DNA from: an uncultured Erythrobacter sp.
GTDB lineage: Bacteria; Pseudomonadota; Alphaproteobacteria; Sphingomonadales; Sphingomonadaceae
Assembly: GCF_958304185.1 (NCBI RefSeq)
Contig: NZ_OY284433.1
Coordinates: 62,001-126,000, forward strand
Length of the DNA: 64,000 bases
Reading direction: 5' to 3'
Notes under the pieces: model-generated
Database searches by the model: none
Seen by the model: the letters and a program-made list of their open reading frames with translations, nothing else
What the model was told of the DNA's origin: nothing
In this document: in pieces, positions 26,648-28,945 of the stretch
Layout of the letters: every line of letters begins with the position of its first letter
Numbering within the stretch: the first letter of the stretch is position 1
Made by a program: the position numbers and the translations under genes

Positions 26648-28945
26648 ATGAGCACCGAAGGATTGAGCGAGGCGGATGCCGCCAATGAATTGATGCGCCT
26701 CGCCCGCGCCATCGCCAAGCATGACCGCCTGTACCACGCCGAGGATTCGCCGGAGATTTCCGACGCCGAATATGACGCGCTCGTCCGCCGCAATGCCGAG
26801 ATGGAAGCGGCGTTCCCGCATCTGATCCGCGACGACAGCCCCGCGCGCAAGGTTGGCCACGCCATCGCGGCCTCGCCGCTCGGCAAGGTTGCGCATGAGG
26901 TTCGGATGATGAGCCTCGACAACGCCTTCAGCCCCGACGAGGTGGCTGAGTGGCTGGCGCGGATGCGCCGGTTCCTGAACCTGCCCGAAGGCGAGCCGCT
27001 TCCATGCACAGCGGAGGACAAGATCGACGGATTGTCCTGCTCCCTGCGCTACGAGAACGGGGTGCTGGTCCGTGCTGCGACGCGCGGTGACGGACAGGTC
27101 GGCGAGGATGTGACGGCCAATGTCCAGTTCATCGATGATATTCCGAAGGTCATCAAGCCCCTTCCCTTGAGGGAAGGGGTTGGGGATGGGTGCTCGACAT
27201 CCGTGAGCGTGGAGCCCCCACCCCCAACCCCTCCCCAAGGGGAGGGGAGTATTCCCGCAGTGTTCGAGGTTCGCGGGGAGGTCTATATGGAAAAACAGGC
27301 CTTTACCGCACTCAATGCTGCGCAGCATGAAGCAGGCGGAAAGCTGTTTGCCAACCCGCGCAATGCGGCGGCGGGGAGCCTGCGCCAGAAGGATGCGAGC
27401 GTCACCGCCAAGCGGCCCTTGCGGTTCTGGGCGCATGGCTGGGGCGCGGCGAGCGAAGTGCCGGGGGCGACCCAATCGGAGGTAGTGGAGCGGTTGCGAG
27501 CATGGGGCTTCCCCGTCTCGCCGCTGTTCGCTCGCGTCGTCGGCGGGGCGGACGAGCTGGTGGCGCGATTCAATGCCATCGGTGCCGCGCGGCCCGGCCT
27601 CCCCTATGATATCGACGGGGTGGTCTACAAACTCGACCGGCTCGATTGGCAGGAGCGATTGGGCTTTGTCGCCAAAGCCCCGCGCTGGGCGCTGGCGCAC
27701 AAATTCCCGGCGGAGCGCGCGGAAACCGTGGTGCAGGGGATCGACATTCAGGTCGGGCGGACGGGCAAGCTGACCCCGGTCGGCAGGCTCGCGCCGGTGC
27801 TGGTCGGCGGGGTGACGGTCACCAATGTGACGCTCCACAACCGCGACGAAATTGCGCGGCTGGGCCTGCGCATCGGCGACCGCGTGGTGATCCAGCGCGC
27901 GGGCGATGTGATCCCGCAGGTGGTCGAGAACCTGACCCGCGAAGACCCGCGCGAGGCCTTCCCGTTCCCCGATCACTGCCCGGAATGCGGCAGCGAGGCC
28001 GTGGCCGAGGAAGGCGAGGTCGATGTGCGCTGCACCGCGGGGTTGATCTGTCCGGCGCAGCGCACCCAGCGATTGGAGCACTTCGTCAGCCGCAAGGCGC
28101 TCGATATCGAAGGGCTGGGCGAGAAGACCATCGCGCAGTTCTTCGCGCTCGGCTGGCTGGAAAGCCCGGCGGATATCTTCCGCCTGCGTGAGCGGCGCAG
28201 CGAGATTTTGAGCCTTGAGGGCTGGCAGGAGAAGTCGGTCGACAATCTCCTCGCCGCAATCGAAGCCAAGCGCGCTCCCGATGCGGCGCGGCTGCTGTTC
28301 GCGCTCGGCATTCGCCACGTGGGCGAGGTGACGGCGCGGGATCTGATGAAGAATTTTCACACGCTCGAAGCCCTGCGCGCAGCGGCCGAGCGCGCGCAAT
28401 CCTCCCCATCAGGGGAGGCGGACAGCGACCCGCAGGGCCGGGGTAGAGGGGCACCCTCGGCTGCTCCGGATGGCGAAGGTGGGGATCAGCCGCACCTGCC
28501 CCTCCACCAGACTGTGTCTGGTCCCCCTCCCCGGGGCGGGGAGGATTTGCTGGCCATCGACGGCATCGGCCCCTCTGTTGTTGAAGCGCTTGGCGACTTC
28601 TTCCACGAGCCGCACAATGTCGCGGTGTGGGAAGACCTGCTCAATGAAGTCACCCCGCCGCGCTACGAAGTGAAAACCATTGCCAGCCGAGTCGCGGGCA
28701 AGACCGTGGTGTTCACTGGCAAGCTGGAAACCATGAGCCGTGACGAAGCCAAGGCGCAGGCCGAACGCTTGGGCGCGAAGGCAGCGGGCAGCGTCAGCCC
28801 CAAGACCGATCTGCTGGTCGCAGGGCCGGGGGCGGGATCGAAGCTCAAGAAGGCTGCCGAACTCGGGATCGAAGTGGTAGACGAAGCGGGCTGGGCGGCC
28901 ATCGTCGCCGAGGCAATGGGTGGTTCCGGGGGGAGCGGGGGATGA
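26648..28945 (+). CDS. ligA: NAD-dependent DNA ligase with two in-frame palindromic-repeat insertions
   Basis: A 765-residue NAD-dependent ligase that seals Okazaki fragments. Adenylation Lys125 is in 'KIDG' (125-128); 'EVRGEVYM' is motif III; a four-Cys zinc finger ('CPECGS' and 'CTAGLICP'), helix-hairpin-helix motifs ('[13 protein letters not shown]') and a C-terminal BRCT domain follow. The protein is longer than usual (about 670-710). The excess is two insertions: residues 171-201 (27158-27250, rich in Pro/Gly) and about residues 584-633 (28398-28547). Both are made of G/C-rich palindromes, are multiples of three and contain no stops. Start at 26648 fits the family N-terminus. Confidence 0.95.
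27158..27250. repeat. Palindromic element 1 inside ligA (31 codons)
   Basis: A 93-base insertion, in frame. It opens with CCCCTTCCCTTGAGGGAAGG (27158-27177) extended to GGGG at 27179, and closes with CCCCTCCCCAAGGGGAGGGG (27228-27247). The inner flanks GGTTGGGGATGGG and CCCCCACCCCCAACC also pair, so the whole is a two-ended inverted repeat. It sits between ligase motifs I and III where LigA proteins normally have a short loop. Confidence 0.85.
28398..28547. repeat. Palindromic element 2 inside ligA (50 codons)
   Basis: A 150-base in-frame insertion bounded by AATCCTCCCC (28398-28407) and its inverse GGGGAGGATT (28538-28547). Internal hairpins are CCTCCCC-ATCA-GGGGAGG (28401-28418), CCAGAC-TGT-GTCTGG (28507-28521) and CCTCCCC-GGGGC-GGGGAGG (28526-28544). 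The left 18 bases are identical to intergenic DNA at 15089-15106. It lies within the helix-hairpin-helix region. Confidence 0.88.

Follow-up and report, generated by a model that had tools for sequence, protein, structure and literature searches.

The palindromic elements of Rickettsia (RPE) were reportedly described by Ogata et al. in 2000. They are palindromes of ~100-150 bp that form long stem-loops and lie both between genes and in frame within conserved proteins, and the Gmk protein carrying an RPE was made and active, with a changed substrate affinity (PMC2229807). The CGTC REPs of alphaproteobacteria carry an unpaired CGTC at one end, an 8-9 bp stem, a 4-5 base loop and an approximate CCA tail; they are intergenic, mostly arranged as head-to-head dimers, and have no dedicated transposase (PMC3733652). 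GTAG and CGTC REPs are also described inside genes of many species, among them a DNA ligase of O. terrae and tRNA synthetases of S. alaskensis and 'E. lithoralis', the latter probably to be read as Erythrobacter litoralis (PMC3733652). REPINs, associated with RAYT, are paired palindromes that form one long hairpin and occur in many copies without genes of their own (PMC3116915), and the MITEs Correia/NEMIS, ERIC and YPAL are stem-loops of 100-200 bp that occur inside genes as well as between them and are at times fused to them in frame (PMC2229807).

Here, we analysed a 64,000-nucleotide stretch of DNA (the window) with two palindromic blocks inside ligA, and the families A1 and A2 to which these blocks belong. 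Like RPE, A1 and A2 are palindromes of roughly 100-150 bp that form long stem-loops, are present in many copies, and occupy intergenic positions as well as in-frame positions within conserved proteins. They differ from RPE in that their hosts are free-living, G/C-rich Erythrobacter relatives and their sequences are other ones, the likeness drawn here being one of form, and in that several families recur in one loop across species. The comparison with RPE drawn in the initial annotation is apt as a working analogy, and in-gene palindromes of E. lithoralis and S. alaskensis had already been published in 2013. With the CGTC REPs, the two families share being mostly intergenic palindromes that sometimes lie inside genes, but alignments inspected by eye revealed no CGTC tag and other stems, and no GTAG tag was seen beside them either; CGTC-like repeats do occur beside A1, in GlyS of this genome and in IleRS of relatives. 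Like REPINs, A1 and A2 are paired palindromes forming one long hairpin, with many copies and no genes of their own. However, the Y1 transposase family PF01797 (RAYT) had no match in this genome, while 5 of 14 control genomes were positive, and a RAYT-driven REPIN system is rejected on present evidence. As with the MITEs, the stem-loops, which are of comparable length, lie in and between genes and are sometimes fused in frame, but no target-site duplication was seen here, where the flanks have diverged; the search for a parent element was that for PF01797.

Two palindromes in ligA and their copies in the genome

The host gene and its two inserts are as follows.

26648..28945, plus strand: ligA, NAD-dependent DNA ligase of 765 aa, host of both inserts (open frame, NCBIfam, Pfam)
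27156..27251, plus strand: block 1, A1-family palindrome in the LigA adenylation domain, ~residues 170-201 (inverted repeat, A1 model, RNA fold, genomic copies)
28398..28547, plus strand: block 2, A2-family palindrome after the LigA HhH match, ~residues 584-633 (A2 model, RNA fold, genomic copies)

The ligA product scored 795.7 bits against NCBIfam NF005932 (cut-off 369) and gave Pfam matches to the adenylation, OB, ZBD, HhH and BRCT domains, and both blocks are read through in its frame. Block 1 is an inverted repeat with 28-nt arms of 86% complementarity and one small hairpin at each end. The A1 covariance model matched 27156-27250 (E = 1.5e-23) and the A2 model matched 28398-28547 (E = 2.2e-25), the building sets of the models including block 1 and block 2 themselves, and DNA searches independent of the models found other copies of both blocks in the genome (E = 1.2e-29 for block 1 and 7.6e-20 for block 2). 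The predicted RNA fold of block 1 reached -73.1 kcal/mol (z = -7.9), and none of 200 shuffles was equally stable; for block 2 the values were -85.7 kcal/mol and z = -2.4, 3 of 200 shuffles being equally stable, which makes its fold less exceptional than that of block 1. No Rfam family matched at gathering score anywhere in the window, and a known Rfam RNA was discarded as the identity of the blocks. The A2 model also gave a weak match to block 1 (E = 2.4e-5), which may point to distant kinship of the two families or simply to shared end hairpins; a single family was dismissed, as each model recovered its own places in the genome.

Site 1 lies between KIDG (K125) and EVRGEV (207-212); aligned to E. 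coli LigA (2owo), it shows as a gap at residues 157/161. The initial annotation had placed it between adenylation motifs I and III and site 2 within the HhH region; site 2 in fact follows the HhH match, near residues 544-548 of 2owo. The site 1 loop has 42 residues here versus the usual 14 in relatives, a net gain of ~28, and the site 2 loop has 62 versus the usual 22, a net gain of ~40. Each block replaces a few loop codons, and LigA minus the net gains comes to ~697 aa, not the 684 residues first estimated. In a structure model the stretch 174-199 had no regular structure (pLDDT <50), although this model, made from 12 sequences, was poor (mean pLDDT 50.2) and too poor to judge site 2.

Counted over both strands, DNA searches of the genome returned 34 block 1 matches and 11 block 2 matches. 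The aligned copies, genic ones included, were used to build the covariance models R1 (A1) and R2 (A2). At E up to 0.01, the 38 R1 matches represented at least 20 distinct A1 places and the 12 R2 matches at least 6 distinct A2 places, both lower bounds since 150 of 1665 (R1) and 150 of 1829 (R2) first-look candidates were scored; the two weakest R1 places had E values of 0.003 and 0.007. Nine of these 26 places, 7 of 20 for R1 and 2 of 6 for R2, were in frame within eight conserved genes:

A1 in frame: ligA (block 1), ileS (L172), trmD (L178), ubiG (L171), mutL (L181), glyS (L372) and a lipoyl-E2 acyltransferase gene (L186, named from Pfam only)
A2 in frame: ligA (block 2) and metH (L192)

Genic placement relied on a simple codon-usage gene caller together with family models. 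The caller assigned 57,567 of the 64,000 window bases to coding sequence (about 90%; an upper figure, counted from stop to stop), so copies in genes are under-represented. The A1 and A2 copies outside genes have the same end hairpins as the ligA blocks. For 19 A1 copies, 79 of 114 frames were free of stops (4.2 of 6 per copy), whereas mononucleotide shuffles of three A1 copies gave 2.9-3.7 of 6; the frames of A1 are somewhat open, and a special coding design is unnecessary. Taken together, the model matches, the genomic copies and the open frame confirm the two in-frame palindromic blocks that had been noticed in ligA, and both repeats recur elsewhere in the genome, inside and outside genes. 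Another family found in relatives, B, was not found in this genome, with all 10 candidates scored.

Two further observations concern extragenic copies. Several of them (in L173, L183, L188, L189 and L191) start or end a few bases from a predicted stop codon; REPs close to gene ends are described in PMC3733652. In the window, 15089-15338 was matched weakly by both R1 and R2 (E from 0.025 to 0.18) and is possibly a decayed copy.

Occupancy of the same loops in relatives

We read LigA at 65 same-genus loci (this genome included) and at 25 others of the same order. Of the same-genus genes, 64 were readable at each site: 7 had a palindrome at site 1, against none of the 25 others, and 7 had one at site 2, including a short leftover hairpin in G062; these residues are absent from most relatives. 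The site 1 insert is of family A1 in this genome and G025 and of family B in G010, G030, G048, G054 and G057; in G030, a C-like palindrome lies inside the B insert. At site 2, long non-repeat loops of 44-51 aa in the genus and up to 123 aa in the order occur in many relatives, indicating that loop length there is naturally variable. Among 80 named LigA loci, some from the same genomes, site 1 was filled in 7 and repeat-like inserts were present at site 2 in 12; Erythrobacter sanguineus DSM 11032 carries family B at the two sites alike. At site 1, the Novosphingobium locus L251 has an A1-like peptide, and the Novosphingobium loci L233 and L248 have a further repeat-like insert, seen at the peptide level. 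L195, from a metagenome-assembled relative, has LigA inserts resembling both of those in this genome, and the inserts of this LigA therefore need not be recent. A DNA search of 114 same-genus genomes found family B in at least 42 and A1 in at least 57; with only 7 or 8 candidates scored per genome these are lower bounds, and absence is weak evidence.

A tree of 57 genomes was built from LigA and TrmD after removal of gappy loop columns. In it, G127, taken to be Erythrobacter ramosus, was the closest to this genome (SH-aLRT 99). G127 is free of palindromes at LigA sites 1 and 2, in TrmD, in IleRS and at the A1-like GlyS site, and its LigA site 2 is a 35-residue non-repeat stretch. When filled and empty genes were compared, a few loop codons differed at the site, and neither a target-site duplication nor a clean excision footprint was seen against G127 and other relatives, in which the loop flanks have diverged.

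In TrmD, one loop carried palindromes of four families. Of the 114 genomes searched, 109 were TrmD-positive, and the gene was read in 90 of these, leaving 19 unread. A palindrome was present in 31 of the 90 genes (A1 in 8, A2 in 12 with G011 counted, B in 4 and C in 7), and the loop was short in the remaining 59. The first 30 genes read were the best-scoring matches and all 30 were filled, while only 1 of the next 60, lower and mostly split matches, was filled; since the reading began with the best-scoring matches, the sample favours genes with an insert. Thirty of the 31 inserts were in frame. Three TrmD rows were without anchors, of which G069 and G143 were added by hand and G011 is out of frame: in trmD of G011 (L410), a single-contig genome, the A2 insert has one C more than usual in a run of C, and the reading frame breaks within the insert; this may reflect a sequencing error, a slippage-prone tract or a true loss.

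The in-frame TrmD inserts with short flanks folded better than all 60 mononucleotide shuffles in 28 of 30 cases, the exceptions being G056 (3 of 60 shuffles as stable) and G158 (13 of 60). Similarity between inserts of the same family had median scores of 29-70, and between families it was 10-15, close to and partly above the shuffle 99th percentile of 10.5-13.5, all on sequences that include shared flanking codons. The B inserts of G010, G030, G054 and G069 have a common layout and common junction codons, as do several A2 inserts. For 55 A2 pairs, the median pN and pS were 0.25 and 0.35 in the insert versus 0.065 and 0.33 in the core, and the other families likewise had the larger share of amino-acid changes in the insert. 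Over the pairs listed, pN/pS was about 0.4-1.1 in the insert versus about 0.1-0.3 in the core, with the qualification that some pairs may differ in insertion origin and that hairpin pairing may affect synonymous sites. Judged by these substitution ratios, amino-acid constraint is weaker in the TrmD inserts than in the core. A structure model of TrmD showed residues 84-114 without regular structure (pLDDT <50), in a model from 67 sequences that was itself poor (mean pLDDT 56.2).

On the 57-genome tree, the 14 occupied TrmD tips called for no fewer than 12 changes of occupancy (unshuffled minimum), and the 6 occupied LigA tips at site 1 for no fewer than 5, as did the 6 at site 2; these counts do not distinguish gain, loss and local recombination. 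For the LigA states, the anchor patterns missed 18 rows and 12 states were set by hand from the loop readings, and site 1 of G030, with its B and C-like parts, was coded as B. Occupied TrmD tips were scattered among empty ones and did not form a single occupied clade with changing families.

Other loops were filled as well. In the best-scoring 30 of 114 genomes, the repeats at one IleRS loop were A1 in 3 genomes (this one among them), B in 2, CGTC-like in 3 and C-type in 3, two of the last being half copies; in the remaining 19 the loop was not classed as repeats. A second IleRS loop, at ~residues 264-306 of the ileS product (L172), is very variable in length among relatives. The GlyRS beta subunit encoded by glyS of this genome (L372, 1005-3488) holds palindromes at three places, of which one is A1-like and the other two are CGTC-like repeat pairs. 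At GlyS site 3 other palindromes are present in G127 and G059, and the CGTC-like repeats differ between this genome and G127.

Origin of the inserts

We consider it most probable (roughly 0.85) that the palindromes land broadly and that only copies in frame within permissive loops survive selection. Because the families recur, copies within conserved genes are in frame, short loops prevail among relatives and other families fill the same loops, this is the best explanation of the data; movement itself we infer from presence and absence on the tree. A1/A2-type hairpin repeats, mostly intergenic, would insert broadly in the genome, copies that break a core gene would be removed by selection, and those that persist would occupy a small number of permissive loops and be translated there as flexible, weakly constrained segments. 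LigA, IleRS, GlyS and TrmD are essential in model bacteria. Movement might depend on an enzyme acting in trans, or on template switching or gene conversion at hairpins, and the scheme would need no assumed benefit to the host. The extragenic copies, the empty relatives and the seven further genes support the earlier proposal that palindromes of the intergenic type inserted in frame into an essential protein, which tolerated them. That proposal also spoke of one mobile palindrome family: presence and absence on the tree agree with mobility, but not with a single family, since LigA alone holds A1 and A2 and the loops of relatives hold more.

Survival bias alone would also concentrate insertions in a few tolerant loops, and this bears on the idea that the loops are preferred landing sites, or that a resident palindrome is swapped in place by recombination. 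The TrmD loop with its four families, the two LigA loops and the IleRS loop with several each, the C-like palindrome within the B insert of G030, the differing CGTC-like repeats at GlyS site 3 of this genome and G127, and the different REPs described at about the same site of recB in two Xanthomonas (PMC3733652) all point towards such an idea. We nevertheless regard it as rather doubtful, as the occupied TrmD tips lie among empty ones and not in one occupied clade changing families, and inspection by eye found no common target sequence. Similarly doubtful is its broader form, in which families would enter, decay, leave and replace each other at LigA sites 1 and 2, TrmD, IleRS and GlyS across Erythrobacter and Novosphingobium beyond what tolerance predicts, the excess coming from insertion preference or from a resident hairpin that promotes exchange. 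A tentative place may be given to the exchange of filled ligA and trmD alleles between species, in which a few insertions would have been copied around. It would suit the layout and junction codons shared by the TrmD B inserts of G010, G030, G054 and G069 and by several A2 inserts, and the tree counts do not separate exchange from new insertion. However, the B-carrying LigA genes are ungrouped in a tree of mostly LigA columns, so only short local exchange could explain the sharing, and each loop must in any case have received several different families; spread by recombination is on the whole unlikely as the main account.

A useful role of the inserts, with selection maintaining them because they change how active, stable or regulated the enzymes are, seems quite improbable: many hosts are indeed nucleic-acid enzymes (LigA, IleRS, GlyS, TrmD and MutL), a bias likewise noted for REPs in PMC3733652, but close relatives live without the inserts, one loop is filled by different families with different peptides, and the TrmD inserts have the higher pN/pS given above. 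The blocks can hardly be chance low-complexity loops with no relation to genomic repeats. The modest fold advantage of block 2 and the variable length of LigA site 2 would fit such loops, but the DNA matches to extragenic copies with the same end hairpins, at the E values of the two model-independent searches, and the genome-wide A1 and A2 places exclude ordinary low-complexity loops.

Published cases and further repeats

In-frame palindromes as such are already published, for Rickettsia and for tagged REPs, and probably also from this genus. In the literature searched, we found neither untagged families of this kind in LigA or TrmD nor a core-enzyme loop in which four families occur across many species; some cases of either kind may be listed in Additional file 3 of PMC3733652. 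Protein-coding palindromes are best known from the intracellular Rickettsiales and from scattered REP cases, and the present loops offer free-living replicates, in which one core-enzyme loop holds different repeats in different species and is empty in close relatives. The loop tolerance of LigA, TrmD and tRNA synthetases can thereby be read from natural variation, and the pairs of filled and empty genes are material for asking how palindromes without a known transposase move. For annotators and structure modellers there is a caution that such segments are repeats and not conserved domains.

Finally, a head-to-head pair of CGTC-like REPs lies at 4985-5066 of the window and consists of GTCATCCCAGCGAAAGCTGGGAC and its reverse complement, which is the kind of pair described in PMC3733652.
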